Below are positions 12,368 through 38,739 of a stretch of 64,000 nt of DNA, in pieces. Numbering within the stretch: the stretch's first letter is position 1; every line of letters starts with the position of its first letter. The translations under genes were made by a program, and so were the position numbers. Source of the DNA: Chelativorans sp. J32 (GTDB lineage Bacteria; Pseudomonadota; Alphaproteobacteria; Rhizobiales; Rhizobiaceae); the NCBI RefSeq assembly GCF_000518985.1, contig NZ_JAEQ01000006.1, positions 62,001 through 126,000 on the forward strand, given 5' to 3'. A model generated the notes under the pieces. The model was not told where the DNA came from. It searched no databases and saw only the letters and a program-made list of their open reading frames with translations.

Positions 12368-12901
12368 GCCATCCATACCGGGTCTGCGATGTCCAATGGC
12401 CCTATCGGGCGGCGGATCTTCATAAAATCTGTGCTCGCTGCCGGCAGGGGGCACATGCATGCGAAGCAATGGCTCACCCATCTTCGTGGACAAGTAGATC
12501 GCCGGCCTTCGTTCCTTACCGATTGCTGTTAAGCTGGGCAGGCGCAAAGCTTCCGGAGTCTCTAACTCCGGCCCTGTCCTGCAAAGCGCGCCTTCCCGTG
12601 AGCGGAAACGCCGGGCGGCATTTGGTCTCATCGGCCCAGCAGCACCCTTGTTGCAATGTGCAGTCCTAGATGATACTAATATAAGTATGATATGAAGATA
12701 GCATGACTTGGACGTTGGGACGGTGTCCAAGTGGGAGGCTGCTTGCCAGGCCTATGCCTGTGCATGCGACAGGGAGCAGATCGAGGATGTCCGCGATGGC
12801 GCCGCTTTGCCGGCACCAGGAGGATTAAGCGGCGCGTGGCTTTTTGCCCGTCCTGAGCCGCAGACGGATTGCTTAAGGCGAGAACCTAGGGAGGAGAGGT
12901 A
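12368..12901. other. 534-base gene-poor stretch with one regulon operator
   Basis: No convincing gene is seen. Open readings here lack ribosome sites and family-like sequence. The only recognisable signal is the shared palindromic motif at 12669-12693. The rest may be leader sequence of the importer operon or a relict; no strong terminator was found after the TetR gene. Confidence 0.5.
12669..12693 (+). promoter_or_regulatory. F420-regulon operator, site 1 (upstream of importer operon)
   Basis: The site reads TACTA-ATAT-AAGTA followed by TGATA and contains the perfect inverted repeat ATACT-N6-AGTAT. It matches the motif found at five other promoters between 16 and 39 kb. It lies 209 bases before the TTG of the first permease gene. 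Recognition by the GntR/UTRA protein at 35434 is inferred. Confidence 0.55.
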
Positions 12902-13774
12902 TTGGACCAGCTTCTGCAGCACTTCGCCAACACGATCATCATGGGCGGGACGTATGCCCTCTTGGGCATCGGCCTTACCCTGATCTTCGGCATCATGCGG
13001 ATCGTCAACTTCACGCATGGGGAGCTGTACGCCTTCGGCGCGTATATGATGTACTTTTTCGCGACGATCATCGGCATGAACTTCTTTGTTGCGATCGCCT
13101 TCGCGATTGCTGCCGGAATGCTTCTTGGCATGCTTCTCGAGTTCTCGCTGCTGCGTCCCAAGCGGGGTGCTGACATCGATACGACCATGCTGATCATGAT
13201 CGGCGCCTGGATCATCATGCAGAACCTGGAGCACCTGACCTGGGGCGGTATAGCCAAGTCGATACCCTCTCCGCTGCCTGAAACTCCGCTGGTAATCGGG
13301 CCGATATCGATCTCGTGGCTCCGCCTGATGGTGCTCGTCATCGCACTGTTGCTGATCGCGGCCACCTACAGCGTGATAAACCTCACCAAACTCGGGAAGG
13401 CGATGCGCGCCACCTTCCAGGACAGCAGCACCGCCGCGTTGATGGGCATCAATGTCAACGCCATTTACACGCTGACCTTCGGCTTCGGCTCGGCACTTGC
13501 TGCGGCGGCCGGCGCTTTGCTGGGCCCCGTTTTCGTCGTCACACCGACGATGGGGGATCTGGCGTCGCTGAAAGCATTCGCGATCGTGATCCTGGGCGGG
13601 TTGGGCAACATCACCGGTGCTGCCATCGGAGGCTTTATCCTGGCGCTCGCTGAAGAGATCGGTGCCGGCTACATCTCATCCGGGTACCGCGATGCGATGG
13701 GCTTCGTCATCATCATCATTGTTCTTCTGTTCAGGCCAACGGGCCTGTTTGCCCGCGCGGAGCGAGTCGGATGA
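12902..13774 (+). CDS. livH: Branched-chain-amino-acid-type ABC transporter permease LivH
   Basis: A 290-residue inner-membrane permease of the LIV/HAAT class with about eight hydrophobic segments. Typical LivH signatures include GIGLTLIFGIMRIVNFTHGE (about 22-41) and the late ILGGLGNITGAAIGGFILA (about 230-248) that contacts the ATPase. It starts at TTG behind GGGAGGAG, which is the only start with a good ribosome site. It is the first gene of livHMGF, whose members overlap or abut. No binding-protein gene is adjacent; livK lies 25 kb away under the same operator. LIV systems carry amino acids, amides, ureas or aromatic acids, so the substrate is open. Confidence 0.87.
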   Translation: MDQLLQHFANTIIMGGTYALLGIGLTLIFGIMRIVNFTHGELYAFGAYMMYFFATIIGMNFFVAIAFAIAAGMLLGMLLEFSLLRPKRGADIDTTMLIMIGAWIIMQNLEHLTWGGIAKSIPSPLPETPLVIGPISISWLRLMVLVIALLLIAATYSVINLTKLGKAMRATFQDSSTAALMGINVNAIYTLTFGFGSALAAAAGALLGPVFVVTPTMGDLASLKAFAIVILGGLGNITGAAIGGFILALAEEIGAGYISSGYRDAMGFVIIIIVLLFRPTGLFARAERVG

Positions 13775-14832
13775 ACCGCTATTTCCCCCTTGTCGCACTG
13801 GTCTTTTTCGCTGCCGTGCCTCTCTGGCTGCAGGATCAATATTATCTGCATACCTTGGTGGTGGCAGGAATCTTCATGCTCGCGGCCATGAGCCTCAACC
13901 TGCTGCTCGGTTATACCGGCCAGCTCAGCCTCGGCCACGTCGCCTTTTTCGGCATCGGCGCCTATGTCAGCGCCCTGACTTCCCTCGGCTTCGACGTGAC
14001 GGTGTTCGGGCGGCAAATCAGCGTCGAGCCATGGCCGCCCTTCTTGGGGCTGCTGCTTGGAATGGCGACAGCCGGGCTCTGCGGCTACCTTATCGGCAAG
14101 CTCGCGTTCCGTGTGCGCGGCGCCTATTTCGTCATCGTCACGATCAGCTTTGCCGAAGTGGTGCGTCTGGTCGCACTGAACTGGGTGGACCTTACCAACG
14201 GGCCTCTGGCGTTACCGGGCATACCACCGCTCACGCTCGGTTTCGAGTGGACCGGCTATGTCACGCTCTGGGGAAAGGCGGAGAACTACTATGTGGTCCT
14301 CGTCTTCATCGCCCTAGCCTATCTCCTGATGAAGCGGCTGGTGCAATCGCCCTACGGGCGGGCGATGATCGCCCTGCGCGAAAACGAAACGCTGGCGGTC
14401 TCGGTGGGCGTCAGTGTTACCAAATATCTCGTGCTGGCGGCCGTCGTATCGGGTGCAGTGGCCGGCCTCGCCGGAGGCCTCTACGCCCATTACATCCAGA
14501 TCATCGATCCGATGATCTTCATGTTCCTCAATACTGTAACCATGGTGATCATCGTCATTACCGGCGGCAAAGGCACCTTGGCCGGCCCGGTGGTTGGGGG
14601 CCTGATCTTCGGTCTCGCTCCGGTATTCCTGCGCAACTATGTCGGCCCGGAGGTACAGTGGATCCTCTATGGCTGCCTGATGATCTTGATCGTCTTTATC
14701 CTGCCGCAGGGCATCGTCCCGGAGATCGAGCGCTGGTTCAACCGTGCCAAGCCGGATCGCAGAAATGATGCGGCTGGGCAGGAGGGCAGCTCCGTGCTCG
14801 CCCTGGCAAGATCGGGAAGGGCGAACCACTGA
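13771..14832 (+). CDS. livM: Branched-chain-amino-acid-type ABC transporter permease LivM
   Basis: A 353-residue second permease of the LIV-type importer. It carries the LivM signature AMSLNLLLGYTGQLSLGHVAFFGIG in its first 70 residues (about 37-61), multiple membrane segments and the coupling motif GGKGTLAGPVVGGLIFGL near 268-285. The C-terminal 25 residues are hydrophilic and slightly longer than usual. It overlaps livH by 4 bases and ends exactly at the livG start, consistent with one transcript and equal stoichiometry. Confidence 0.87.
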   Translation: MNRYFPLVALVFFAAVPLWLQDQYYLHTLVVAGIFMLAAMSLNLLLGYTGQLSLGHVAFFGIGAYVSALTSLGFDVTVFGRQISVEPWPPFLGLLLGMATAGLCGYLIGKLAFRVRGAYFVIVTISFAEVVRLVALNWVDLTNGPLALPGIPPLTLGFEWTGYVTLWGKAENYYVVLVFIALAYLLMKRLVQSPYGRAMIALRENETLAVSVGVSVTKYLVLAAVVSGAVAGLAGGLYAHYIQIIDPMIFMFLNTVTMVIIVITGGKGTLAGPVVGGLIFGLAPVFLRNYVGPEVQWILYGCLMILIVFILPQGIVPEIERWFNRAKPDRRNDAAGQEGSSVLALARSGRANH

Positions 14833-15626
14833 TGAATGCGCAAGTACAAGTATCCGCGCCAATCCTCGCGGTTGAGCACGTCGCGGTCCATTTCGGCGGT
14901 CTGATCGCCATATCGGACATGTCTTTCGAAGTGCGGGAGGGAGAGCTTGTCAGTCTGATTGGTCCCAACGGTGCCGGAAAAACGACGGCTTTCAACGTGA
15001 TTACCGGCTTCCAGAAACCAACCAAGGGGCGGGTCCTGTTTCGCGGCAATGCCCTTAGCGGGCTGAAGCCGCATGAAGTGGCTGGACTGGGTCTGGTACG
15101 CACGTTCCAGCGCACCAGCGTCTTCGATAAGATCTCGGTGTTCGAGAATGTCTTGATCGGATTGCACCGGCGGACGGCGCCGAGTTTGCTCGGGACGCTC
15201 CTCGGCCTGCCGCGCGAGCGGAAAGCGGAGGAGGAGCTGCGCGAACAGGCATGGGAGATCCTGCGCCTCGTCGGCATCGCGCATGAGGCCGACGAGCCGG
15301 GAGGCAGCCTACCCTATGGCGACCAGCGCCTGCTCGGCGTCGCCTTGGCCCTCGCTGCCGAACCGCAGGCACTGCTTCTCGACGAGCCGGTTTCCGGCAT
15401 GAATGCCTCCGAGACGGCACGTTTCGTCGAACTGCTGAACCGGCTGCGCGCCAAGGGGATCACCATATTGCTCGTCGAGCATGACATGCCGATGGTGATG
15501 GGCATCTCGGACCGGATCGTGGTGCTCAATTACGGACGCATCATCGCGAACGGATCTCCCTCTATGATCCAGAACGATCCGGACGTGATCGCCGCCTATC
15601 TCGGGGGAGGGGTGAAGCATGCTTGA
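14832..15626 (+). CDS. livG: ABC transporter ATP-binding protein LivG
   Basis: A 264-residue ATPase of the LIV importer. It has Walker A GPNGAGKTT (about 43-51), the LivG insertion around residues 95-140, a signature loop seen here as SLPYGDQRLLGVALAL (in place of the usual LSGGQ, normal for LivG), Walker B ALLLDEPVSGM (about 178-188) and the switch His in LLVEHDM. Its start overlaps the livM stop by one base and it overlaps livF by 8 bases. It works with LivF on the cytoplasmic face of LivHM. Confidence 0.88.
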   Translation: MNAQVQVSAPILAVEHVAVHFGGLIAISDMSFEVREGELVSLIGPNGAGKTTAFNVITGFQKPTKGRVLFRGNALSGLKPHEVAGLGLVRTFQRTSVFDKISVFENVLIGLHRRTAPSLLGTLLGLPRERKAEEELREQAWEILRLVGIAHEADEPGGSLPYGDQRLLGVALALAAEPQALLLDEPVSGMNASETARFVELLNRLRAKGITILLVEHDMPMVMGISDRIVVLNYGRIIANGSPSMIQNDPDVIAAYLGGGVKHA

Positions 15627-16335
15627 GATCAGAGGTCTTGTCTGCCGCTACGGCAAGGTGACGGCGTTGGATGGAATATCCCTGACGGTGCCGGAGAAGA
15701 AGCTCGTGGTCCTGGTCGGTGCCAATGGTGCCGGAAAGAGCACGACGCTCAGGGCCATATCCGGCCTCGTGCCGGCCGCCTCGGGCCAGGTGATCTTCAA
15801 TGGTGAAGACATCACCGGGATGAGTGCAAGCTCCATCCTGGCTAAGGGGATTGCGCATTGTCCGGAAGGCCGTCGGGTCTTCGGCCAGATGACCGTGCTC
15901 GAGAATCTCGAGATCGGCGCTTATCTTCGGAAAGATACCAGGGAAATAGCCGCCGACAGGGATCGGGTGCTGAGCCTTTTCCCGCGGCTTGCCGAACGGC
16001 GCAGGCAGGTGGCGGGGACCCTTTCAGGCGGCGAGCAGCAGATGCTTGCCATCGGCCGTTCGATGATGTCGCGGCCGAAGCTGATCATGTTTGACGAGCC
16101 CTCGCTGGGGCTCGCGCCGAACATCGTCGAGCAGACCTTCTCCATCATCCAGGGCATCCGGGAAGCGGGCACCACCGTCATGATGGTGGAGCAGAACGCC
16201 TTCGCCGCCCTCGACATGTGCGACTATGCCTACCTGCTCGAGGCCGGCAGCATGGTGCTGGAAGGAGACGGGAAGGAGTTGATCAGCAATCCGCATGTGC
16301 GGGAGGCTTATCTCGGCGTGACGGCACACGCCTGA
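15619..16335 (+). CDS. livF: ABC transporter ATP-binding protein LivF
   Basis: A 238-residue ATPase, partner of LivG. Walker A GANGAGKST (about 34-42), signature LSGGEQQMLAIGRSMM (about 135-150), Walker B KLIMFDEPSLGLAP (about 154-167) and the switch His-equivalent region MMVEQN are present. The Q and N in place of the usual H-D at VEQN is common in LivF. It closes the livHMGF operon. The next gene, the F420 reductase, has its own operator 138 bases later, so importer and F420 genes are co-regulated but not necessarily cotranscribed. Confidence 0.88.
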   Translation: MLEIRGLVCRYGKVTALDGISLTVPEKKLVVLVGANGAGKSTTLRAISGLVPAASGQVIFNGEDITGMSASSILAKGIAHCPEGRRVFGQMTVLENLEIGAYLRKDTREIAADRDRVLSLFPRLAERRRQVAGTLSGGEQQMLAIGRSMMSRPKLIMFDEPSLGLAPNIVEQTFSIIQGIREAGTTVMMVEQNAFAALDMCDYAYLLEAGSMVLEGDGKELISNPHVREAYLGVTAHA

Positions 16336-16376
16336 AACCTTGACCATCAACCAGCCTCTTGACCTCTCAAAAAATC

Positions 16377-16400
16377 TATCTTACTAAAGATAGTAACTAT
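16377..16400 (+). promoter_or_regulatory. F420-regulon operator, site 2 (upstream of F420 operon)
   Basis: TATCT, TACTA, AAGA, TAGTA in order. Two overlapping perfect palindromes are visible: CTATCTT-ACTA-AAGATAG (16376-16393) and TTACTA-AAGA-TAGTAA (16381-16396). The site lies about 75 bases before the F420 reductase start and is one of the best copies of the shared motif. Confidence 0.65.
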
Positions 16401-16473: not shown

Positions 16474-17139
16474 ATGGCTGAAAGCTCGAAGCCCGTTATC
16501 GGTATTCTTGGCGGAACCGGGGACCTGGGATCCGGCCTTGCGAAAGGCTGGTCCGCGGCGGGATATCCGGTGGTGATAGGCTCCCGCTCACGGGAGAAGG
16601 CCGAGGCCAAGGCAGCCGAGCTCGGGCGGGGCGTCCGCGGGGAGGACAATGCGGGAGCTGCCCGACGGGCCGACATCATCGTGCTCGCCGTGCCCTTCGG
16701 CAGCCACAACGCGACGATTGAGGAGATCAAGGCAGAGGCACAAGGCAAGATCGTGGTCGATGCCGCCGTTCCTCTGGTGCCTCCGAAGGTTTCCCTCGTG
16801 CAATTGCCGGAGCAGGGATCGGCAGCGCAGATAGCACAGCAGCTGCTGGGAGAGGGCGTCCGCGTCGTCTCTGCTTTCCACAATGTGGGGGCTTCCAAGC
16901 TGCACCAGGGCGGCAAGGCCGATTGCGACGTGCTCGTGTTCTCCGATGACAAGGAGGCGCGCGATCAGGTGATTGCGCTTGCCGACGTGGTCGCTACGCG
17001 CGGAGTGGGTGGGGGATCCCTTGCAAATTCCGCCGCTGCCGAAGCGATGACCTCAGTGCTGATCTGGATCAACCGCCAGTACAAGGTTCCCGGCGCCGGC
17101 GTGCGCATCACAGGCCTGGACGCAGCGGCCCGAGCCTGA
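16474..17139 (+). CDS. fno: NADPH-dependent F420 reductase (F420H2:NADP oxidoreductase)
   Basis: A 221-residue single-domain oxidoreductase that exchanges hydride between NADP(H) and coenzyme F420. The N-terminal Rossmann motif GILGGTGDLGSGLAKGW (about 9-25) and the SRSREKAEAKA segment (about 37-47), with Ser-Arg residues suited to the 2-prime phosphate of NADPH, are characteristic, as are SAFHNVGASKL and the C-terminal helix. It heads the F420 operon and lies 3 bases before cofE. In aerobic bacteria it makes F420H2 from NADPH, and here it would feed the LLM enzyme downstream. Assignment rests on family resemblance plus the adjacent F420 pathway. Confidence 0.9.
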   Translation: MAESSKPVIGILGGTGDLGSGLAKGWSAAGYPVVIGSRSREKAEAKAAELGRGVRGEDNAGAARRADIIVLAVPFGSHNATIEEIKAEAQGKIVVDAAVPLVPPKVSLVQLPEQGSAAQIAQQLLGEGVRVVSAFHNVGASKLHQGGKADCDVLVFSDDKEARDQVIALADVVATRGVGGGSLANSAAAEAMTSVLIWINRQYKVPGAGVRITGLDAAARA

Positions 17140-17142
17140 TCA

Positions 17143-17913
17143 ATGCCGGCAAACCCGATCTCGCTACATCCTCTTTTCGGACTGCCGCTCTTCGAGCCCG
17201 GTGACGATCTCGCGGCGATCATCGGCCATGCTTTGCGTTCAAGCGGGCTTGGCATGCAGAACGGCGACGTGCTGGTTGTGGCACAGAAGATCGTCTCCAA
17301 AGTCGAAGGACGCTATGTGGACCTCGACAGTGTCCAGCCGTCGGAGCGGGCCCGCGAACTCGCGGAGCGCACGGGCAAGGATCCGCGCCATGTAGAGGTG
17401 GTGCTCTCTGAAACCGAAGAGGTGGTGAAGGTCGGCCCGCAGCTGATCATCGTGACCCATCGATTGGGCTTCGTGATGGCGAATGCGGGCGTGGACGAAT
17501 CCAATATAGAACACGGTGAGGGCGCAGGCCGGGTCCTTCTCCTTCCGCGTGATCCGGACGGGTCCGCAGCGGCGCTAAAGTGTGAGCTCGACGCGATGTT
17601 CGGCGTGTCCTGTGGGGTGCTCATCAATGACAGCTTCGGGCGTCCGTGGCGCAACGGAGTGGTGGGGGTAGCGTTGGGAGCCGCGGGCGTCCCGGCGCTG
17701 GTCAACCGCATCGGAGAGCAGGACCTGTTCGGCCGCAAGCTGAAGGTCACCGAAGTCGCCACGGGGGATGAGATCGCCTCTGCCGCCTCGCTTCTCATGG
17801 GGCAGGGCGCGGAAGGCATTCCCGCGGTGCTGGTGCGGGGTTTGCGCATGGAAGCGCCGGCTGCGCCCGCCGCAAGCCTTCTGCGCGATCGATCGAGGGA
17901 TATGTTCCGATGA
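17143..17913 (+). CDS. cofE: Coenzyme F420-0:L-glutamate ligase CofE
   Basis: A 256-residue GTP-dependent ligase adding gamma-linked glutamate to F420-0. Recognisable family regions are GDVLVVAQKIVSKVEGR (about 43-59), the metal/GTP region TEEVVKVGP-like EEVVKVGPQLIIV, and NDSFGRPWRNGVVGVALG (about 163-180). It is stand-alone: the C-terminal nitroreductase-like domain that actinobacterial FbiB carries, which reduces dehydro-F420-0, is absent. It overlaps cofD by 4 bases. One enzyme of this type adds one or two glutamates in archaea, so the tail length here is unknown. Confidence 0.92.
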   Translation: MPANPISLHPLFGLPLFEPGDDLAAIIGHALRSSGLGMQNGDVLVVAQKIVSKVEGRYVDLDSVQPSERARELAERTGKDPRHVEVVLSETEEVVKVGPQLIIVTHRLGFVMANAGVDESNIEHGEGAGRVLLLPRDPDGSAAALKCELDAMFGVSCGVLINDSFGRPWRNGVVGVALGAAGVPALVNRIGEQDLFGRKLKVTEVATGDEIASAASLLMGQGAEGIPAVLVRGLRMEAPAAPAASLLRDRSRDMFR

Positions 17914-18902
17914 GCGAGGCGCACGCACATTTTCATGAACGCCGCGTCGTTGCGCTCTGTGGCGGCGTCGGCGGGGCGAAGCTCGCATTCGGGCTGGCGC
18001 AGAAGCTTGGAGAAAATCTGACCGTCATCGTCAATACGGGCGACGATTTCGAACATCTTGGCCTCACCATCTGTCCCGATATCGATACCGTGCTCTACAC
18101 GTTGAGCGGTCTCGCAAACCGTGTCCAGGGATGGGGACGGGCGGACGAGAGCTGGAATTTCATGGAGGCGCTGGCGCAGCTCGGTGGCGAGACCTGGTTT
18201 CAGCTGGGCGATCGCGACTTGGCCCTCCATGTCGAGCGTACGCGCGCTCTGAAGGCCGGTGTGCCGCTCACCGAATTCGTGGCCGAAACAGCGCAGCGCT
18301 TTGGCATCTCCAGCCGTATCCTCCCCATGTGCGACGATCCGGTCCGCACTGTTCTCGACACATCGGAGGGTATTCTCCCGTTCCAGCGCTATTTCGTGGA
18401 GCGCCGCTGTGCGCCGAAGGTGAAGAAGATTTCCTTCCAAGGTGCGGAAGCCGCGCGCCCATCGCAATCAGTCACGGACGCGCTGCAATCTGCAGATTTG
18501 GGGGCGATCGTGATCTGCCCGTCCAATCCTTATCTCAGCGTCGATCCGCTGCTGGCGGTGCCCGGGCTGCAGGCTCTGGTTCAGGCGGCCGCCGTGCCGG
18601 TCGTCGCGGTGTCACCCATCATCCAAGGAAAGGCGATCAAAGGGCCGACCACGAAGATCATGGATGAGCTCGGCGTGGAGGTCACCTCTGCCGCCATCGC
18701 CGCCCATTACGCAGACCTGATCGATGGGCTCGTCATCGATAGCGCGGATTCCGGCGAGGGGGAGAAGCTTCCGATCCCCGTTCATGCCGTACCGACACTG
18801 ATGTCGAGCGATGAAGACCGGGTTCGGCTTGCAGGCGAAGTCTTGGATTTTGCCGCCATGCTTGCCTCCATCCCTGCACGGCAGAAGGCGGCTTCCTCAT
18901 GA
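17910..18902 (+). CDS. cofD: 2-phospho-L-lactate (or related) transferase CofD
   Basis: A 330-residue transferase joining the GDP-activated three-carbon acid to the deazaflavin Fo, giving F420-0 or a relative. The N-terminal motif [18 protein letters not shown] (about 13-30), [19 protein letters not shown] (about 45-63) and [14 protein letters not shown] (about 206-219) are diagnostic. Length matches the family. It overlaps both neighbours by 4 bases, so cofE, cofD and cofC are translated as a coupled set. Confidence 0.93.
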
Positions 18903-19573
18903 GAGACGTGGGGAAAGGACCGTGGGCGATCGTTCCAGCGAAGGGTTTTGCGCGAGCGAAGACGCGACTGGCACCACTGCTGCAGCCTCATGAGCGGGCA
19001 GAACTGGCCAGCGCCATGTTGCGCGACGTGCTGGGGGTGCTCGCCCATTCACCTGTACTGGGCGGCATTCTGCTCGTGAGTGGCGACGCGGACGTAGCCC
19101 GTATGGCTGCCGATTATGGTGTCGCAACACTCATGGAGCCGATGGAAGCCGGAACGAACGCTGCCGTGCAGCGGGGACTGGACCACCTGAAAATGGTGGG
19201 AGCGGAGCGGTGTGTCGTGGTTCAGGCGGATATCCCCTTCCTCGCAAGCCACGAGCTTGCCGCCGTGCTGGGGGCGTTGGGGCGCAACTCTCTGGCTCTC
19301 GTTCCTGCGTCTCGGGACGGCGGCACAAACATGCTCGCCTTGGCCCGCCCTGACCTGATCGCGCCGAATTTCGGGCATGACAGTTTCGCGCGGCATCTCC
19401 GCGCGGCCGCCGCACTTGGTATCACGGCTGAGGTGCTGCAGCTTACCGGCGCGTCTCACGACATCGACGTTCCCACAGACCTTTCCTTCGATCCGCAAAA
19501 CGGAACCGGCAGGCATACCCAGGCGCTGCTTCAGCGCCTGCCGCATGCCCGTCCTCTTCATGGGGCAAACTGA
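18899..19573 (+). CDS. cofC: Guanylyltransferase CofC for F420 side-chain precursor
   Basis: A 224-residue nucleotidyltransferase that activates 2-phospholactate, phosphoenolpyruvate or 3-phosphoglycerate with GTP for CofD. The N-terminal nucleotide-binding stretch IVPAKGFARAKTRLAPLL (about 11-28), an acidic metal site in VVQADIPFL (about 109-117) and the late GHDSFARHLRAA region are visible. Which acid is used depends on a few pocket residues I cannot score by eye. No dehydro-F420 reductase is encoded nearby, which argues mildly against phosphoenolpyruvate. It precedes fbiC by one base. Confidence 0.9.
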   Translation: MRDVGKGPWAIVPAKGFARAKTRLAPLLQPHERAELASAMLRDVLGVLAHSPVLGGILLVSGDADVARMAADYGVATLMEPMEAGTNAAVQRGLDHLKMVGAERCVVVQADIPFLASHELAAVLGALGRNSLALVPASRDGGTNMLALARPDLIAPNFGHDSFARHLRAAAALGITAEVLQLTGASHDIDVPTDLSFDPQNGTGRHTQALLQRLPHARPLHGAN

Positions 19574-19574
19574 C

Positions 19575-22010: not shown

Positions 22011-22034
22011 TATCTTACTAACATTAGTACGATA
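22011..22034 (+). promoter_or_regulatory. F420-regulon operator, site 3 (upstream of PLP enzyme operon)
   Basis: TATCT, TACTA, ACAT, TAGTA, CGATA in order: the most symmetric copy, with TACTA/TAGTA and the outer TATC/GATA both palindromic. It ends 45 bases before the chosen start codon of the PLP enzyme. A GTG just 3 bases downstream would place translation on the operator and is not preferred. Confidence 0.65.
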
Positions 22035-22078
22035 GTGTGAAACTGCTGGAGGACGAGGCCAGCAGGCTGGAGATGCTG

Positions 22079-23575
<1,497 letters not shown>

Positions 23576-23611
23576 TGCGTGGCGGCGGGCCGCCGAAGAG
23601 AGGAGAACAGC

Positions 23612-25337: not shown

Positions 25338-25356
25338 TTTATCTGGAGGAGTATTG

Positions 25357-26313: not shown

Positions 26314-26350
26314 ACCGATCACTCAGCGAACAATCTATCCGGAGTTTTGA

Positions 26351-27712: not shown

Positions 27713-27736
27713 TATCTTACTATAAATAGATTGACT
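27713..27736 (+). promoter_or_regulatory. F420-regulon operator, site 4 (upstream of pnt operon)
   Basis: TATCT, TACTA, TAAA, TAGAT in order. The left half is identical to the other sites while the right half is degenerate (TAGAT for TAGTA). It lies about 70 bases before the pntA start and 20 bases after the preceding terminator tail. Confidence 0.55.
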
Positions 27737-27807
27737 TGGACTCTGATCGGAGTCACATTGAATGCGTCGGAGGGGTTCTCCTCCGGGCAATCAAGGAGAA
27801 GGGGGCC

Positions 27808-28941: not shown

Positions 28942-29000
28942 CAGGTAGGATCGCGCCGCTCGTATTGATGCCGAGTGGCGCAACTCGTGGAGAAAATTAC

Positions 29001-29312
29001 ATGACGTCCACCGCCGTGATTCAGCTTTTTGTCTTTCTGCTTGCCGGGTTCGTCGGCTTTCAGACCATAACGCGCATCCCGCCGCTTCTGCACACGCCGT
29101 TGATGGCTGCCACCAATGCCATTTCCGGTATCTCTCTGGTTGCTTCGCTCGTGCTGGCAGGCACCAACCAGGGTCTGCTCAGCACCGTGCTCGGTACGAT
29201 CGCCGTTGGTTGCGCCACGGCGAATGTGGTGGGCGGCTTCCTCATCACGGACCGCATGCTGGCTATGTTCAAGCCGCAGAGGCTTGAGGCCAAGGAGTCC
29301 CTCAACTCATGA
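29001..29312 (+). CDS. pntAB: NAD(P) transhydrogenase alpha-2 subunit (membrane)
   Basis: A 103-residue membrane subunit with three to four hydrophobic helices: VIQLFVFLLAGFVGFQTI, ATNAISGISLVASLVL and LLSTVLGTIAVGCATANVVGG. The HTPLMAATNAISG signature, part of the proton path region, is intact. It overlaps pntB by 4 bases and follows pntAA by 59 bases. Confidence 0.9.
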   Translation: MTSTAVIQLFVFLLAGFVGFQTITRIPPLLHTPLMAATNAISGISLVASLVLAGTNQGLLSTVLGTIAVGCATANVVGGFLITDRMLAMFKPQRLEAKESLNS

Positions 29313-30756: not shown

Positions 30757-30780
30757 TATCTTACTAAATATAGTCTGAGA
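30757..30780 (+). promoter_or_regulatory. F420-regulon operator, site 5 (upstream of molybdenum hydroxylase operon)
   Basis: TATCT, TACTA, AATA, TAGTC in order, the left half identical to sites 2 to 4. A second perfect palindrome, TGAGAT-GTG-ATCTCA (30776-30790), overlaps its right end and may be a separate protein site. The operon starts 56 bases downstream. Confidence 0.58.
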
Positions 30781-30835
30781 TGTGATCTCACCGTATCAGG
30801 GTTGCGGCTGATTCAGGAGAGGGAGGAATTGCACC

Positions 30836-33229
30836 ATGGCTGCACAGGTTAGCAGCGGGCAGGGCGTGGGGGCTTCGCTTCAGCGCAAGGAAGACGACAG
30901 GCTGTTGCGCGGCAGAGGCCAGTTCGTGGCCGACATCCGGCTCGCCGGCATGAAAGATGTCGCTTTCGTGCGCTCGCCGATTGCCCATGGCCGGGTACGG
31001 GGGGTGCATGTTCCAGAAGAGCTGCGCGACAGGGTCGTCGTGGCTGCCGATCTCGAGGGCGTGAAACCGATCCAGGCCGTTTCGGGCCTTCAAGGCTTCA
31101 AACCGTCGGATCAGCCGATCCTGGCTTATGAGAAGGTGCGGCAGGTAGGCGAACTGATCGCCATGTGCATAGCCGACACGCGCGCGCACGCGGAGGATCT
31201 AGCCGCACTTGTGGAGCTGGATCTCGAGGAACTCCCGGCAGTGCACGATATGCTCGCCGCGCGTCAGCCGGGGGCACCGCTGCTCCATGAGCAGTGGGGG
31301 GACAATATTTTTCTTGAGACCTTTGTCGACGTCAATATGGAGGCGGCGCTCGATGCGCCGATCAAGGTGACGCGGGAGATTTCGACCGCGCGACAAAGCA
31401 TGGCGCCAATGGAGGGGCGAGGCACGGTTGCCTATTGGGACAACCGCATGGGCCAGCTCGTCCTTTACACCGGCTGCCAGATGCCGCACATCGTGCGGAC
31501 CGGCCTCGCCGAGTGCCTCGGGCTCGATCACCACCAGGTTCGCATCATATCGCCGGATGTGGGCGGCGGCTTCGGCTACAAGGGCATCCTTCTGCCGGAG
31601 GATGTCTGCCTCGGCTGGTTCGCGATGCGTTGCGGCCATCCGGTCCGTTGGATCGAGGATCGGCGCGAACATCTGACCGCCGGCGCCAATTGCCGCGAGC
31701 ACCACTATCGTATCACCGGCTATGCCGATCGAGATGGAAGGCTTCTTGGAATCGATTGCGAAGCCACGGTGGATTCTGGAGCCTATTCCTCCTATCCGTT
31801 CTCTGCTTGCCTTGAGGCGGCGCAGGTCGCAAGCATCCTGCCCGGTCCGTACGATTTCCCGTCCTATCGCTGCCGCACCTGGTCGGTCGCCACCAACAAA
31901 TGTCCCATCCTGCCTTATCGCGGGGTGGCACGCACCGGCGTTTGCTACGCGATGGAGCTGGTCATCGATGCGATTGCCCGCGAAGTTGGCATGGAGCCGC
32001 ACGAGGTGCGGCTGAAGAATCTCGTGCGCCCGGAGCAAATGCCCTTCGACAACATCACTCGAAAGCATTTTGACAGCGGTGATTATCCGGAAGCACTGCG
32101 CCGTGCCATCGCCGCGATCGACGTGCCAGCGATACGCGCACGCCAGGCGCGTCCCGAGCCGGATGGCAGGCTGATCGGTGTGGGTCATGCGATCTACTGC
32201 GAGCAGGGCGCACACGGCACCTCCGTCTATGCCGGTTGGGGCATCCCTATGGTGCCGGGGCACGAACAGGCGACGGCGCGCATGACGCCCGACGGGGGTT
32301 TGGAATTGCGTGTCGGTGTGCACTCGCACGGCCAGAGCATGGAGACGACGCTGCCGCAGATCGCGCACGAAATTCTTGGCATCGATGTCGCCAAGATCAA
32401 GCTGGTGCACGGAGACACGGAATACACACCCTATTCTACGGGAAGCTGGGGATCGCGCTGCGCCGTGATGGCAGGCGGCGCTGTGGCGACCGCCTCGCGC
32501 GAGATAGCCAAGCTCGCCGAGGGCATCGGCGCACATCTTCTGCAGGCAAAGATAGATCAGGTGGAACTGGTCGGCGGCGCCGTGGTAGGGCCATCCGGCA
32601 GTGTCACGCTCGAAGAGATCGCGCGGACCTGGTACCGTCGCCCCCAAAACCTGCCGGACGGCGTCGATCCGCGCGGCCTGGAAGTGACGATCGGCCACAA
32701 GCCGGTCCGCGACAGCGGCACATTCAGCTATGCGGCGCACGCCGCTGTTGTGGCCGTCGATCCGGAACTCGGAGACATCGAAATCCTCGACTATGTCATC
32801 GTCGAAGATGGCGGCAAGCTCATCAACCCGATGGTGGTCGACGGGCAGATCTTCGGCGGGCTGGCGCAGGGCATCGGTACCGCGCTTTATGAGGAGATGA
32901 ATTTCGACGCCTCCGGCCAGCCGCTTGCCTCTACCTTTGCCGATTATCTTCTGCCGGGCCCGACGGAGATACCCGCGCCTCGGCTGGAGCATATGGAGAC
33001 TCTGGCCCCCTACACGGAATTCGGCGTCAAGGGGATAGGAGAGGGCGGAGCGATCGCGCCTCCTGCGGTCATCGGCAACGCGGTCAACGATGCGCTGAAG
33101 CGTTACGGCGTCGAGCTTTTGCACACGCCGATGACGCCACGTCGGGTTCTGGAAGCGATCCGTAATGCCCCTGTCCGCGAGGATCGCGGGCCCGAGGCGA
33201 TGGAGAACATGCGCGGAGAATTCGCATGA
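30836..33229 (+). CDS. Molybdenum hydroxylase large subunit (xanthine dehydrogenase / CoxL family)
   Basis: A 797-residue molybdopterin-cytosine-dinucleotide-type catalytic subunit. It keeps the family layout: an N-terminal aldehyde-oxidase-type hammerhead domain (about 20-130), the DVGGGFGYKG cofactor loop (about 241-250), PYRGVARTG (about 360-368), and the catalytic glutamate in GIGEGGAIAPPA (E736). The CO-dehydrogenase-specific active-site Cys loop of form I CoxL is not seen, so hydroxylation of an aromatic N-heterocycle or aldehyde is more likely than CO oxidation. It overlaps the FAD subunit gene by 4 bases. It may hydroxylate the imported substrate early in the pathway. Confidence 0.87.
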   Translation: MAAQVSSGQGVGASLQRKEDDRLLRGRGQFVADIRLAGMKDVAFVRSPIAHGRVRGVHVPEELRDRVVVAADLEGVKPIQAVSGLQGFKPSDQPILAYEKVRQVGELIAMCIADTRAHAEDLAALVELDLEELPAVHDMLAARQPGAPLLHEQWGDNIFLETFVDVNMEAALDAPIKVTREISTARQSMAPMEGRGTVAYWDNRMGQLVLYTGCQMPHIVRTGLAECLGLDHHQVRIISPDVGGGFGYKGILLPEDVCLGWFAMRCGHPVRWIEDRREHLTAGANCREHHYRITGYADRDGRLLGIDCEATVDSGAYSSYPFSACLEAAQVASILPGPYDFPSYRCRTWSVATNKCPILPYRGVARTGVCYAMELVIDAIAREVGMEPHEVRLKNLVRPEQMPFDNITRKHFDSGDYPEALRRAIAAIDVPAIRARQARPEPDGRLIGVGHAIYCEQGAHGTSVYAGWGIPMVPGHEQATARMTPDGGLELRVGVHSHGQSMETTLPQIAHEILGIDVAKIKLVHGDTEYTPYSTGSWGSRCAVMAGGAVATASREIAKLAEGIGAHLLQAKIDQVELVGGAVVGPSGSVTLEEIARTWYRRPQNLPDGVDPRGLEVTIGHKPVRDSGTFSYAAHAAVVAVDPELGDIEILDYVIVEDGGKLINPMVVDGQIFGGLAQGIGTALYEEMNFDASGQPLASTFADYLLPGPTEIPAPRLEHMETLAPYTEFGVKGIGEGGAIAPPAVIGNAVNDALKRYGVELLHTPMTPRRVLEAIRNAPVREDRGPEAMENMRGEFA

Positions 33230-34059
33230 AGCCCGTCAACTTCGACTATGTGCGGCCGAGGGACGTCGAAGGCGCGCTCCGGTTCATCGCCAATGACGAG
33301 CGTGCGGTGAAGATCATGGCAGGCGGCCAATCGCTAGGGCCGATGCTCAATATGCGACTGGTGCAGCCGGACCTCATTGTCGACATCACCGGCATCGAAG
33401 AACTCCGCCAAGTGGAAGAGAAGAACGACACGGTTGTGTTCGGCGCGTGCATCACGCATGCTGACATCGAGGATGGCAGGGCCCCGGACGTTACACGGGG
33501 CGCGTTGCGCACTGTGGCGCGCGGCATCGCCTATCGGGCTGTGCGCAACCGCGGCACGATCGGCGGCAGCATCACCCACGCTGATCCTTCGGCCGACTGG
33601 ATATCCATCCTGGCAGCGCTTGGAGCGACGGTGACGCTGCGCGGGCCGGAAGGCAGCCGCAGCATTCCCATCGAGAATTATATCATGGGAGCGCTCGAGG
33701 CCGATCTTCGGCCGGGCGAGATGCTTGTTTCCGTCACGGTCCCGCGGCTCAGCGCGGCGGCCCGCTGGGGCTATTACAAGAGCTGCCGCAAAACGGGTGA
33801 ATTTGCGCATGCCATCGGCGCTTTCCTTATCGATCCCGAGCGGGATGTGTGTCGTGCGGTTTTCGGTGCCACTGAGAGCCGGCCGATCGTCGTAGCCGAT
33901 GCGCGCAGGCTGCTTGGCGACAGCTCTGCCCCGAGCGCAGGATTCGATAGCCGGCTCGCCGACGAACTGGTGGAGGCCGGCGGCATGGCCGACCCGATCG
34001 ACCGACAAATCCACGTGGCCGCGTTGCGGCGCGCCGTCGAGCAGGCAGGTGCGGCATGA
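33226..34059 (+). CDS. Molybdenum hydroxylase FAD-binding subunit (CoxM family)
   Basis: A 277-residue FAD subunit. The two FAD motifs AGGQSLGPMLNMRL (about 32-45) and TIGGSITHADPSADW (about 110-124) are intact, and a C-terminal CO-dehydrogenase-flavoprotein-like domain follows. It transfers electrons from the iron-sulfur subunit to an acceptor (quinone, NAD or oxygen). It overlaps both neighbours by 4 bases. Confidence 0.88.
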   Translation: MKPVNFDYVRPRDVEGALRFIANDERAVKIMAGGQSLGPMLNMRLVQPDLIVDITGIEELRQVEEKNDTVVFGACITHADIEDGRAPDVTRGALRTVARGIAYRAVRNRGTIGGSITHADPSADWISILAALGATVTLRGPEGSRSIPIENYIMGALEADLRPGEMLVSVTVPRLSAAARWGYYKSCRKTGEFAHAIGAFLIDPERDVCRAVFGATESRPIVVADARRLLGDSSAPSAGFDSRLADELVEAGGMADPIDRQIHVAALRRAVEQAGAA

Positions 34060-35267
34060 ATACGATCAACCTCACCATCAATGGCCGGGCGACCAGCGCC
34101 CCCTGCGAACCCCGCACGCATCTTGCGGACTTCATTCGTGAGACCCACGATCTGACAGGAACGCATATCGGCTGTGAACACGGCGTGTGCGGTGCGTGCA
34201 CGGTGCTCATTGACGGGGTGCCGGCGCGGTCTTGCATTACCTTTGCCGCCGCCTGTGAGGGAGCCTCGGTGACCACTGTGGAAGGGCTGGATGAGGACGA
34301 GATCACGGCCGAACTGCGCGTCGCCTTTTCGCGCGAACACGCATTGCAGTGCGGCTACTGCACGCCCGGCATGCTTGTCTCCGCGCGGGACGTTGTGCTG
34401 CGCATGGAGGCACCAACAGAGCAAGACATCCGCGTCGCGATGAGCGGCAATTTGTGCCGCTGCACGGGATATGTGGGCATCGTCAAAGCTGTCCAGGCAG
34501 TGGTTGCCGATCGACGGGCGCGCGGCATCCAGCCGATACCCGATGGAGGCCGGACCCGGCTTGGTCCCGCCGGTTCGGGCAATGCGGCGGAACGGGGAGC
34601 CGCACCGGCCCCAGCCACCACGATGAACGGGGCGATCTCCGCTTCAGCAGCGCGCCCGGCCTCGGTTGCCCAGGCGGAAAATTGGAAGCCCCAGACAACC
34701 TTCGAGCAGAGCTTTACGGTCGCCCATCCTGTGGATGTGGTTTGGGGCTTCTTCGGTCGGGTAGAAGAGGTTGCCGCCTGCCTCCCTGGTGCCTCTCTCA
34801 ACGGCCCAGCCCGGGATGGGCATGTGGAGGGGCAGATCAAGGTCAAGGTGGGGCCGATCTCTGCCGAGTTCCATGGAGCGGCCGATATCACCCGGGACGA
34901 GGCCACCCGCACCGGTGTCATTGACGGGGTTGGTAAAGACAGGCGCAGCAATTCGACCACACGGGGGCAAATCCGCTATGCCGTCCGGCAGGCAGAGACA
35001 CCGGGTGAGACCCGCGTCGACCTGACCGTCGGCTTCACCCTGTCGGGCATGCTCGCGCAGTTCAGCCGGTCAGGCCTCGTGCAGGACGTCGCCAACAGGT
35101 TGATTGCCGTATTCGTCCAAAATCTGGAAGCACGCCTGGCGCACCAGATGCGAGGCGACGCGGGGCCACCGCCTGCGGCGGGAGAGTTCGATGCGGGTTC
35201 GTTCCTGTCCTCGGTTTTCCTGGGCCAACTGAAGCGCTTGGTGGGGCGGTTCTTCCGGCGCAATTAA
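34056..35267 (+). CDS. Fusion of 2Fe-2S molybdenum-hydroxylase subunit (CoxS) with CoxG/SRPBCC domain
   Basis: A 403-residue natural fusion. Residues 1-160 are a complete CoxS: plant-type cluster cysteines in GCEHGVCGAC and a late Cys (about C60), then the second cluster in QCGYCTPGM and CRCTGY. A proline- and alanine-rich linker (about 165-205) joins it to a CoxG-like SRPBCC domain (about 210-350) with PVDVVWGFFGRVEEVAACLPG. The C-terminus ends in a hydrophobic-basic helix (LGQLKRLVGRFFRRN). In CO dehydrogenase systems the separate CoxG recruits the enzyme to the membrane and supports electron delivery to quinone, so the fusion may tether this enzyme there. The reading frame is continuous. 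Confidence 0.87.
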   Translation: MNTINLTINGRATSAPCEPRTHLADFIRETHDLTGTHIGCEHGVCGACTVLIDGVPARSCITFAAACEGASVTTVEGLDEDEITAELRVAFSREHALQCGYCTPGMLVSARDVVLRMEAPTEQDIRVAMSGNLCRCTGYVGIVKAVQAVVADRRARGIQPIPDGGRTRLGPAGSGNAAERGAAPAPATTMNGAISASAARPASVAQAENWKPQTTFEQSFTVAHPVDVVWGFFGRVEEVAACLPGASLNGPARDGHVEGQIKVKVGPISAEFHGAADITRDEATRTGVIDGVGKDRRSNSTTRGQIRYAVRQAETPGETRVDLTVGFTLSGMLAQFSRSGLVQDVANRLIAVFVQNLEARLAHQMRGDAGPPPAAGEFDAGSFLSSVFLGQLKRLVGRFFRRN

Positions 35268-35433
35268 CGCAAACGTCCAGCGGCCCTTTCGATGAGCTCC
35301 GTGCCTTCTTTCGAAGCGCAGCCCATCCTTGTTGCGGCGGGTTGCGGGACGAGGCCGATTCCGTCAATTCATGCGATTCTGCCAAACCCAGTGTGCTATG
35401 GCGCTTTCATCCTATTTGTCGTACATAAAGATC

Positions 35434-36186
35434 ATGAAAAAACTTGCTTCTCTTTACGATCGCAGCCGTGTCCCGCTCTACATCCAAGTCGCATCAGTGA
35501 TGCGGCAGCGGATCGAGAGCGGCCATTGGGCCGAAGGTGACAAGATCTCGACCCTCGAAGAGCTTGAGGCTGAGTTCGCCGTCGCGCGCGTGACCATCCG
35601 CCAAGCCATTGAACTGCTCCGCAACGAGGGCCTGCTCGATGCACAGCAGGGCCGGGGCACCTTCGTTTCCGGAAGGCCGCGTCACAACCGCTGGTTAAAT
35701 CTCGCCAACGACTTCGACACCATGCTCGCGCTGGTGAAGGACAATGTGATCGAGCGTGTTCATATCGAAGAGAATGTCGCGCCGCCCGATCTCGATGAGC
35801 GGGAAGGAAAGCCAGCCGAGAAATACACGTTTCTTCGCAGCGTCCAGTATAACAACGGCGAGCCATTCTCGGTCGTGAACCTTTACCTGGCCCAGAACCT
35901 CTTTGCTCGCGATCGGAAACGCTTCTCCCATTCCGCGGCGTTGCCGAGCATCGTGGAGATGCAGGATGTCCGCATCCTTCATGCATACCAGACGCTGACG
36001 ATCGGCGTTGCCGACCCGGAGACGGCCAATCTGCTGAAGATCGGTCTTGGCGAGCCCACCGCTGATTGCCGCCTGGTCCTGATAGACGATGCGAACACGG
36101 CTATCTACGTAGCGAACATCCACTATCTCAAGGATTGCTTCGCGTTACGGGTCGATCTCTTGAACAAGGGCAAGGTGGAAGCGTAG
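35434..36186 (+). CDS. GntR-family regulator with UTRA ligand domain, candidate regulator of the F420 regulon
   Basis: A 250-residue regulator of the HutC/FarR branch. The N-terminal winged helix is clear (PLYIQVASVMRQRI and FAVARVTIRQAIELL up to about residue 70, then GRGTFV), followed by a UTRA domain (about 85-240). The start is uncertain: an ATG at 35434 is chosen because family members begin shortly before the first helix, while upstream in-frame starts at 35398 or 35329 have no better ribosome site. It is the only regulator between 12.7 and 38.7 kb, so it is the natural candidate for the six palindromic sites. Its own promoter shows no clear copy of the motif. Confidence 0.82.
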   Translation: MKKLASLYDRSRVPLYIQVASVMRQRIESGHWAEGDKISTLEELEAEFAVARVTIRQAIELLRNEGLLDAQQGRGTFVSGRPRHNRWLNLANDFDTMLALVKDNVIERVHIEENVAPPDLDEREGKPAEKYTFLRSVQYNNGEPFSVVNLYLAQNLFARDRKRFSHSAALPSIVEMQDVRILHAYQTLTIGVADPETANLLKIGLGEPTADCRLVLIDDANTAIYVANIHYLKDCFALRVDLLNKGKVEA

Positions 36187-36213
36187 GCGCGCCGCGGTTT
36201 ACCCACGGCGCGC
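36187..36213. terminator. Hairpin between convergent regulator and dpaL
   Basis: GCGCGCCG and CGGCGCGC form a strong 8-base stem with an 11-base loop between two convergent stop codons. No T-run is seen on either strand, so it is a probable but not certain bidirectional terminator. Confidence 0.55.
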
Positions 36214-36220
36214 GGGCCCA

Positions 36221-37453
36221 TTACGCCGGCGCGAACAGGTCGGCCGGCGTGCAGCCGACAATCGCCCGGTAACGCGCCTCATCGGTGGCTCCCTCCGTAT
36301 TGATGAGGAGCACGCGTGAATGCGCATCAATGCCGAGTGCCGACCGCGTCTTTGCGTCGGCAGCCGCCTTGAGAAAGCCGGCCAGGCCGGCAGCGCCGCT
36401 TTCGCCTGAGACGATCGGCGGATCGCCGGCGACCGGGCGGGCGAGGCGGCGCATGGTCTCGGCCGCGTCATCCTCGTCGATGGTCATGTAGGCGTCCGCT
36501 TTGCGCGAAAGAATGCGCCAGGCCACCAATGACGGCTCGTAGCATTCCAGCATGGCCATGATGGTGGGTTCGCCATGTGCAACCTTGAGGGGGTGACCGG
36601 CCTGCGCACTTTCGAACAGGCATGCCGCCCTGCTCGGTTCGACGACAATCAGGCGCGGGCGCTTGTCCCCGTAACGGACGTCGAAGTGACCGGCAACAGC
36701 CGCGGCAAGGCCTCCTACGCCTGCCTGAACGAAGACGTGTGTCGGCGCGGCCGCCAGGGCATCTGCCGCCTCCTTGAGCATCGCTGTATAGCCTTGCATG
36801 ACAAGACCGGGAATTCGTTCGTATCCCGGCCAGGAGGTATCTGAGACGACGGTCCATCCCATCTCCTTGCACTTGCGTTCGGCCTCTGCGACTGAATCGT
36901 CATATGTGCCATCGACGCGGATAATCTGGGCCCCGAACGCGGCAATCGCGGCCACACGTTCGTCCGACACTCCTGAATGAACGAAGATCGCAGCTTTCGC
37001 GCCGACAAGTTGGGCGCCGGCGGCCACCGACTTGCCGTGATTGCCGTCCGTCGCGCAGCCGAAGGTCATGCCGGCGGCGACCTCGCGGACGGCCGGCGAA
37101 TGCAGCTCTGCTATGTCCACTGGAAGGCCGAGCTTGCGGCCCGCCTGCTCCAGGACGAGACGGATAACGGCATAGGAACCGCCGAGAGCCTTGAAGCTGT
37201 TGAGGTCCAGCCTTTGACTTTCGTCCTTGACGTAGACGGCTTCGACGCCAGTCAGGCGGGCCAGGCCGGCAAGTGCATGGAGCGGGGTTGGCTTATGGTT
37301 CGGGCGGTAGGAAAGGAAGCGCGCTACCGCTTCGGCCGACGCGAGGCTGAGGATGTCGGCGTCTCTGGAATCGAGCGGTGTGCCGTGGTCGGGATGAGAG
37401 TTGAGGATAAGCAACGCGAAAGCTCCATGTTGCATCTGCGAAAAGTCGCGCAT
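36221..37453 (-). CDS. dpaL: Diaminopropionate ammonia-lyase (DpaL/YgeX family)
   Basis: A 410-residue fold-type-II PLP lyase that splits 2,3-diaminopropionate to pyruvate and ammonia. Family residues seen: Schiff-base Lys in DLNSFKALGG (K88), the ATDGNHGKSVAAG loop with the catalytic Asp (about D136), DTSWPGYERIPG with the second Asp, and VGVGGL-like QAGVGGLAA for the PLP phosphate. The ATG at 37453 sits within the T-run of the upstream terminator, so a TTG at 37414 with GGAG eight bases before it is a credible alternative start. It is second in an operon with livK. Leaving groups other than ammonia are possible in this family, so substrate scope is open. Confidence 0.85.
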   Translation of the reverse strand: MRDFSQMQHGAFALLILNSHPDHGTPLDSRDADILSLASAEAVARFLSYRPNHKPTPLHALAGLARLTGVEAVYVKDESQRLDLNSFKALGGSYAVIRLVLEQAGRKLGLPVDIAELHSPAVREVAAGMTFGCATDGNHGKSVAAGAQLVGAKAAIFVHSGVSDERVAAIAAFGAQIIRVDGTYDDSVAEAERKCKEMGWTVVSDTSWPGYERIPGLVMQGYTAMLKEAADALAAAPTHVFVQAGVGGLAAAVAGHFDVRYGDKRPRLIVVEPSRAACLFESAQAGHPLKVAHGEPTIMAMLECYEPSLVAWRILSRKADAYMTIDEDDAAETMRRLARPVAGDPPIVSGESGAAGLAGFLKAAADAKTRSALGIDAHSRVLLINTEGATDEARYRAIVGCTPADLFAPA

Positions 37454-37479
37454 GAAAGAAGCCCGCCGGTGCGGCGGGC
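37452..37479 (-). terminator. Intra-operon terminator-like hairpin between livK and dpaL
   Basis: On the minus strand GCCCGCCG-CAC-CGGCGGGC (37479-37461) is followed by TTCTTTC, a rho-independent terminator shape directly before the dpaL start. It is likely to hold back dpaL relative to the binding-protein gene, as is common downstream of ABC binding-protein genes. Confidence 0.7.
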
Positions 37480-37501
37480 CAGTTTACATCGGATGATCAG
37501 A

Positions 37502-38656
37502 TCAGGAGCCGACAAGCTCGATCTTGCCGTCAACGATCCGTACCAGCGTGCCATTCGCCATATATTGACCGCTCTCCCGGCCTTCGGGACCGTCCTTGAC
37601 GAAGGTGACCGTTCCGTTGAGCGCCGGAGCTTCAATGTTCCAGAATGCCTCTTTGATCGCTTCCGGTTCAGCCTTGCCGGCCATTTCGATCGCTGCCTTG
37701 ATGACCTGAATGCCGTCGTAGCCGCGGTAGCTCTCGGTCATGCCCGCTTTGTCGTGCCCGGCCTTTTCCCAGGCCGCGACGAAGGCTTTAGCCCTGTCGG
37801 GATGTTCGGCCCTTTCCGGGAACCACGGTGCGAAGAAGACCATGTGGATGCTGTTGTTGGCTGCGGAGCCGGCCTGCTGTATCAGCTGGTCGGGATTTTG
37901 CGATCCGCCGGTCGTGATGATCTGCTTCGTTATACCGAGCGCAGCAGCCTGCTTGAGGAGCAGTGTGAGTTGCTCGACCGCGGTCGTCACGATGATGGTG
38001 TCGGAGTCCGACGCCTTGATCTTGGACAGTTGCGCACTCAGATCCTGCGCGCCCTGATCCATTATCTCGGACAGTCCGACCTCGATTCCTTCTTCTCCAA
38101 GAGCCTTGGTGAAATCGTTTATGGTGCCGATTCCCCAGTCATTGTTGATGGCCAGGAAATCGACCTTCTTTATGTTGAGTTCCGGCAGGTGCTTCTTGAA
38201 TAGTTCCGCTTCGACCCAGGAGGGCGGCGAAATGCGGAATACGTAGGGATTGCCTTGCTGGGTGATCTTCGACGACGAGGATGTCTCGACCAGCATCGGT
38301 ACCTGGTACTGCATCAGCTTCGGCATCGCGGCGAGGGTAAGGCTGGACCCCCAGGCGCCGAGGAGGACGGGCACTTTGTCGCTGACGATAAGTTTTTCGG
38401 CAACGGCAGCAGCTTCGGTAGGATTGCTCTTGTTGTCCTCGATGACGAGCTGGAGCTTCTCGCCAAGAACCCCGCCATTGGCGTTGATCTCCTCCACTGC
38501 GAGCTTGGCGCCGTCGACGATGTAAGTGCCGGACGCCGCAAAGGGCCCGGTCAATGGCTGGTTGACGCCGATTTTGATCGGATCGGCTTGCGAGATACCG
38601 GCCCCTGCCAGGATCAGCGAGGCGGTAATCGCATACAAGTGCAAGCGCTCAATCAA
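37502..38656 (-). CDS. LIV-type ABC transporter substrate-binding protein LivK
   Basis: A 384-residue periplasmic binding protein with an N-terminal signal peptide (basic start, hydrophobic segment, cleavage expected after about residue 23 at ISQA-DP). The type I periplasmic fold is seen in IKIGVNQPLTGPFAASG (about 26-42) and EEINANGGVLGEKLQLVIED. It starts at a TTG behind GGAGGAGAAG. Its operator (38714-38739) is shared with livHMGF 25 kb away, which lacks a binding protein. The most economical reading is that it serves that importer. The ligand is unknown, but the neighbouring DpaL suggests an amino-acid-like molecule. Confidence 0.85.
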   Translation of the reverse strand: MIERLHLYAITASLILAGAGISQADPIKIGVNQPLTGPFAASGTYIVDGAKLAVEEINANGGVLGEKLQLVIEDNKSNPTEAAAVAEKLIVSDKVPVLLGAWGSSLTLAAMPKLMQYQVPMLVETSSSSKITQQGNPYVFRISPPSWVEAELFKKHLPELNIKKVDFLAINNDWGIGTINDFTKALGEEGIEVGLSEIMDQGAQDLSAQLSKIKASDSDTIIVTTAVEQLTLLLKQAAALGITKQIITTGGSQNPDQLIQQAGSAANNSIHMVFFAPWFPERAEHPDRAKAFVAAWEKAGHDKAGMTESYRGYDGIQVIKAAIEMAGKAEPEAIKEAFWNIEAPALNGTVTFVKDGPEGRESGQYMANGTLVRIVDGKIELVGS

Positions 38657-38713
38657 TGTCTTCTCCTCCGGTTATACGCATCAATTGCTTGGCACCTGGC
38701 CCAAGCAATCCTA

Positions 38714-38739
38714 CTATTATACCAATAATAGTATAATAG
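38714..38739 (-). promoter_or_regulatory. F420-regulon operator, site 6 (upstream of livK-dpaL)
   Basis: Read on the minus strand: TATTA, TACTA, TTAT, TGGTA, TAATA, matching the layout of the other five sites. It contains the perfect palindrome CTATTATAC-N8-GTATAATAG. It lies 58 bases before the livK start. Confidence 0.6.

Follow-up and report, generated by a model that had tools for sequence, protein, structure and literature searches.

Six operons of a 26-kb catabolic cluster in Chelativorans sp. J32, one of them for synthesis of the cofactor F420, carry the same palindrome in their promoter regions. The cluster lies in a stretch of 64,000 nucleotides (contig NZ_JAEQ01000006.1, positions 62,001 to 126,000), hereafter the window, and the consensus of the full palindrome is TATCnTACTAn4TAGTAnGATA (24 bp). 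The regulon is real and highly specific; it belongs to a familiar class, the GntR catabolic regulons, and F420 synthesis is its unusual member. As judged from sequence comparison, the palindrome is likely to be the operator of a local GntR/UTRA repressor that is released by a metabolite of the pathway, making F420 inducible for one catabolic route.

A preliminary description of this DNA had listed six promoter regions that share the motif before different operons. All six are present, together with a weak seventh that was not listed. The core TACTAN4TAGTA, with up to two mismatches, occurs eight times in the window against 1.35 expected, a count reached by none of 100 shuffles; the two matches besides the six sites are at 35410, before gntR, and at 63736, outside the cluster. 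Across the whole 4.70-Mb genome the core with at most one mismatch is found at eight places, five of them inside the cluster, and the 24-bp palindrome with at most three mismatches at four, all inside it. A site model, R1, built only from sites of other organisms, was run on the same genome at an expectation value (E) of 10 or less, with 50 first-pass candidates scored. It returned 10 rows, which are the six known places on one or both strands, and no place beyond them. The preliminary description had suggested a genome scan as a check; such scans leave six places with R1, or four of these with the 24-bp form, and so do not show the spread over many unrelated promoters that it had named as fatal. 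The same operator stands before most operons of the set and is rare elsewhere in the genome.

We next consider 80 homologous loci (1.36 Mb), the best 80 of 166 confirmed by alignment of the CoA-transferase beta subunit, many of them truncated and none extending more than 10 kb from the query gene. They are largely from Rhizobiales (Kaistia, Afipia, Nitratireductor, Bradyrhizobium, Aminobacter, Labrys and Methyloligella), with Betaproteobacteria and unclassified bins. The putative operator is conserved across many soil bacteria. These loci contain 142 motif matches, only one of which falls within a mapped gene. Counted with overlaps, the 143 matches compare with a mean of 14.8 (standard deviation 12.5, maximum 91) for 200 permuted palindromes, including one whose core was intact (62 matches). 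The sites are rich in AT although the window has 61.6 % GC, and one permuted palindrome did reach 91 matches, as might be expected if the sites were AT-rich palindromes that arose by chance, or a dispersed repeat that regulates nothing. However, no permuted palindrome matched the real count, flanks and spacers vary between sites, and the genome has only six places, whose position is conserved. Shuffles, permuted palindromes and the genome scan together rule out a chance origin, and we give this explanation as a whole almost no credence.

The position of the sites relative to genes was counted as a site of at least 5 bits within −350 to +60 of a gene start, with the operon structure of the window taken as given. 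In the 80 loci, 110 of 196 operon-leading starts have such a site, against 27 of 567 operon-internal starts. Among leading genes the fractions are 43/54 for PALP (the pyridoxal phosphate (PLP) enzyme), 19/37 for fno, 9/11 for pntAA, 15/25 for livK, 13/26 for MoL, 10/20 for gntR and 1/23 for livH. The internal starts with a site belong to CoaTA (14/77), dpaL (7/12), M20 (2), MoM (2), fbiC (1) and CoaTB (1), and in relatives some of them seem to stand first in an operon. Overall, 63 of the 80 loci have a site at this threshold. Operator position is thus conserved in relatives, the exceptions being the remaining 17 loci and one genome, G226. G198, which belongs to another family, has a syntenic cluster with a match at every one of the six promoters.

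The training set of R1 was gathered by likeness to the consensus in the preliminary description and includes nothing from the window: the 142 matches gave 131 distinct ones outside mapped genes, from which 13 weak ones were dropped by hand, leaving 118 sites. A PALP match was present in 28 other genomes; stretches were fetched from 20, and seven of these have the F420 cluster. Applied to 22 further genomes at E of 0.5 or less, R1 yields 16 places in seven of the eight F420-cluster genomes, all in cluster-bearing stretches, and no place in the eighth, G226. Three of the genomes that hold the cluster overlap the training set: loci L102 and L125 come from the organisms of G233 and G061, and locus L096, with identical sites, comes from Labrys sp. 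KNU-23, to which G198 is very close if not the same. Three genomes picked for GntR alone give one place (G017), one (G356) and two (G245, one on another contig), and none of 11 genomes from the same family that lack a PLP-enzyme match gives any at this threshold. A lone strong site of 24.4 bits lies on another contig of G245 (L215, about 17.7 kb; G245:C11:95725), a genome with no CofD match.

The protein encoded at 35434 has a GntR winged helix followed by a UTRA domain, the arrangement of the GntR/HutC subfamily, and reaches the cut-off of no named NCBIfam equivalog. The protein is present in all nine F420 clusters read at 29–40 kb (G000, G198, G061, G108, G039, G251, G226, G189 and G233). 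The sites could instead belong to the TetR regulator (11732–12367), encoded immediately ahead of the liv operator with its gene ending some 300 bases short of the first site, to the AsnC regulator (42442–42942) or to an unlinked regulator. TetR-type operators are often longer than 20 bp, which would suit the first of these. Yet TetR and AsnC neighbours occur in none of the 80 homologous loci, compared with 21 for GntR, and are not listed in the 40-kb clusters, all of which have GntR; moreover, where homologues occur away from F420 genes, the motif lies within their gntR promoter. We reject TetR and AsnC on their absence from the homologous loci, which extend no further than 10 kb from the query gene, and consider a different owner of any kind improbable.

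Order- and class-wide searches placed 25 GntR loci above and nine below a cut at E of about 1e-64, which was set post hoc. Plain identity to the window GntR overlaps between the two groups (34–48 % and more for the 25, 31–38 % for the nine), which differ in profile score and clade. The rows without a scored locus comprise a second GntR copy each in G251 and G145, which score close to the cut or over it, and nine more that fall below. Of the 25 loci, 21 have a site scoring 5 bits or more; of the nine, which form a separate clade (support 100/100), none has one; control DNA has two such windows in 519 kb. At 16 of the 25 loci the stretch read (3.7 to 40 kb) lacks F420 genes; the homologues there are 34–47 % identical, and 13 of these 16 loci nevertheless have the motif, 11 within the gntR promoter itself. 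There is no CofD match in 14 of the 16 genomes, some of which are incomplete, and the motif is present in 11 of the 14. Because the motif is kept at GntR loci without F420 genes and is missing from the separate clade, it follows the regulator and not the F420 genes. On the tree of all 34 GntRs its presence requires four changes, whereas shuffled labels require 10.6 on average and never as few in 500 trials. The link to the 35434 protein, only inferred in the preliminary description, is strengthened by the nine clusters, the non-F420 homologues and the lack of TetR and AsnC, and this GntR/UTRA protein is the best-supported candidate owner of the sites.

The neighbours of GntR at the non-F420 loci vary. 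The stretches of G245 and G356 still include a molybdenum hydroxylase like that of the window. At the others GntR has different neighbours, such as a GMC oxidoreductase or a fumarate-reductase-like set, identified by reading the sequences by eye. Three loci (L198, L199 and L208), also read by eye, combine the GntR homologue and the palindrome with genes resembling those for a PLP desulfhydrase-type enzyme, a fumarate-reductase-like complex and a class-I fumarase or tartrate dehydratase, and look like a second regulon of the same regulator family. The wing sequence is (Q/R)GxGTxV in the 25 GntRs and RAKGTFV in the nine. Since four of the 25 have no site, we regard this possible specificity determinant as only a lead.

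Several observations weigh against a GntR-controlled F420 regulon as described here. G226 lacks a site despite having the cluster and GntR. The F420 genes located in G356 and G417 are on other contigs, where no site accompanies them; in G356 these genes (L217–L218, G356:C6) contrast with GntR and the molybdenum hydroxylase (L211, G356:C16), which have two sites, so that the operator there would control the hydroxylase but not F420 synthesis. The operator is therefore not coupled to the F420 genes in every genome. The livH promoter is a weak point, the site of the window and G198 being rarely matched elsewhere. Three of the 16 non-F420 GntR loci, in G270, G253 (site 3 kb away) and G477, miss the motif, and the core bases differ from the GTGG half-site of the related regulator NagR. 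Finally, the window's own gntR site is weak, at 6.8 bits; its orthologous place in G198 scores 14.9 bits, and autoregulation of gntR is probable.

Table. Predicted operators and genes of the 26-kb cluster (window coordinates)
Feature	Position	Strand	Remarks
Operator before livHMGF	12669..12692	+	22.3 bits; R1 match in genome scan
Operator before fno-cofE-cofD-cofC-fbiC	16377..16400	+	exact core; 23.1 bits; R1 match
Operator before PALP-CoaTA-CoaTB-LLM-M20	22011..22034	+	perfect 24-bp palindrome, 0 mismatches; 34.0 bits; R1 match
Operator before transhydrogenase genes pntAA-AB-B	27713..27736	+	25.3 bits; R1 match
Operator before molybdenum hydroxylase operon	30757..30780	+	20.0 bits; R1 match
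Weak seventh site, centre 18 bp before gntR	35405..35428	+	6.8 bits
Operator before livK-dpaL	38715..38738	-	27.3 bits; R1 match
livHMGF-type ABC transporter genes	12902..16335	+	
fno, cofE, cofD, cofC, fbiC: F420 synthesis and NADP-linked F420 reduction	16474..21980	+	
CysK-like PLP enzyme, glutaconate-type CoA-transferase pair, F420-subfamily LLM oxidoreductase, M20 hydrolase	22037..27634	+	
NAD(P) transhydrogenase subunits	27736..30694	+	
Molybdenum hydroxylase large, FAD and iron-sulfur (FeS) subunits	30836..35267	+	FeS subunit fused to CoxG domain
GntR/UTRA regulator, proposed site owner	35434..36186	+	Pfam GntR PF00392 57.8 bits (cut-off 27), UTRA PF07702 30.9 (23.8)
dpaL (diaminopropionate ammonia-lyase family) and livK (binding protein)	36221..38656	-	

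The genome has a single copy of CofD, so F420 synthesis in this organism falls under this operator, in agreement with the earlier proposal that it forms part of a catabolic regulon. The LLM protein is a predicted F420 user, passing the F420-subfamily model TIGR03619 with 199.2 bits against a cut-off of 166.9. Other F420 users are possible, as the genome encodes eight LLM-family proteins. The M20 hydrolase scores 104.5 against the YgeY model, under the cut-off of 321.5.

We infer that a GntR dimer bound to TACTAN4TAGTA over the core promoters of the six operons would block their transcription, and that it would also bind weakly at its own promoter. Binding of a substrate metabolite to the UTRA domain would then cause the dimer to let go. 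Import by LivK and LivHMGF, the molybdenum hydroxylase, the PLP enzyme, the CoA-transferase, LLM, M20, DpaL, F420 synthesis with Fno and the transhydrogenase would all rise together, and F420 would become an inducible cofactor tied to one catabolic pathway. The sign of control is not given by sequence alone, and GntR might act as an activator, or bind only with its ligand, rather than as a ligand-released repressor. At all six sites, however, the best sigma70-like hexamer pair within about 70 bases overlaps the operator (TTGCAT-17-TACGAT at PALP and TTGCCT-16-TATAAT at livK, for example), an overlap that suits a repressor, although it was counted without a control and AT-rich sequence readily resembles a −10 element. 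NagR and DasR, the closest solved relatives, are also repressors (for NagR, PMC4333415), and we consider the activator model unlikely. Electrons could pass from NADH to NADPH and F420H2 to supply a reduction, or be drained in the opposite direction from an oxidation linked to F420.

The predicted transporter of the cluster looks amino-acid-like. Relatives add genes with Pfam LamB_YcsF and carboxyltransferase domains, which we take to be homologues of PxpA, PxpB and PxpC (5-oxoprolinase subunits), and an L-serine dehydratase; one Neopusillimonas locus (L153) additionally has an acyl-CoA carboxylase pair and a carbonic anhydrase. A broader proposal, to which we give somewhat less than even weight, is that F420 in these Proteobacteria is inducible and made for one catabolic pathway. 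Through an operator code of its own, a GntR subfamily would switch on F420 synthesis, the NADPH/transhydrogenase feed and a route that depends on F420, probably reduces a ring, and acts on an amino acid that is N-heteroaromatic or yields diaminopropionate.

Two further regions of the window were noted. A second catabolic cluster at 39428–54083 encodes a class-III aminotransferase, an aldehyde dehydrogenase, AsnC, OCD/mu-crystallin and PALP proteins, an ABC amino-acid transporter, M24 and M20 hydrolases and a GntR-aminotransferase (MocR-like) regulator. This gene set, which presumably resembles that of ectoine utilisation, contains no site of 3 bits or more. The region at 1348–11690, with genes for a glycosyltransferase, several methyltransferases, a CDP-alcohol phosphatidyltransferase and RibD_C, sulfatase-fold and enoyl-CoA hydratase proteins, contains no operator site.

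Why Proteobacteria make F420 was described as an open question in a 2021 review, which, in the parts drawn on here, reports only trace F420 in two Alphaproteobacteria and no experimentally studied F420-dependent enzyme from bacteria outside Actinobacteria (PMC8498797). If true, a pathway-bound, inducible F420 would explain those traces. An operator linking F420 synthesis to one set of import and catabolic genes makes the question directly testable, and the site model is specific enough for outlining the regulon in other genomes. A literature search, whose scope left out subscription journals and preprints, turned up neither this operator nor any description of F420 genes controlled by a GntR.

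The regulator shares its domains with the GntR/HutC UTRA catabolic repressors NagR/YvoA of Bacillus subtilis and DasR, its best solved relatives. In the portion of PMC4333415 used here, the GTGG half-sites of NagR lie at −7 to −4 from the centre; the core here, at −7 to −3, has a similar spacing and other bases (TACTAN4TAGTA as against GTGGTCTAGACCAC), and is not a NagR-type operator. In an alignment read by eye, the position of NagR Arg38 is Glu42 in the 35434 protein and Arg48 is kept as Arg52. Loss of Arg38 was rejected as a specificity switch, this Arg being missing in motif-bearing GntRs and equally in the nine without the motif.

The gene content recalls the reductive uric acid pathway, for which passages of PMC12507026 describe Chloroflexota with a putative F420-dependent reductase: a molybdenum hydroxylase, an F420-type LLM, an M20 hydrolase and a diaminopropionate ammonia-lyase occur together in both. 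Unlike that pathway, the cluster has a CysK-like PLP enzyme and a glutaconate-type CoA-transferase instead of SsnA, HyuA and YgeW, none of which is among its Pfam-assigned genes, in a search confined to the 26 kb. A plain uric acid pathway is disfavoured for the cluster because its ring-opening genes are not seen in the 26 kb, and for the same reason we suggest, with low confidence, only a related logic in which an N-heteroaromatic compound would be hydroxylated, reduced, opened and cleaved. A close regulatory parallel is mycobacterial mycofactocin synthesis, placed under one ligand-responsive regulator, MftR, with a 27-bp palindromic operator (PMC8728441, in part). In both systems the synthesis of a rare redox cofactor would answer to one regulator through a palindromic operator, but MftR is of TetR type and serves mycofactocin, whereas here the predicted regulator is a GntR, the cofactor is F420, and import, catabolic enzymes and cofactor feed share the operator.

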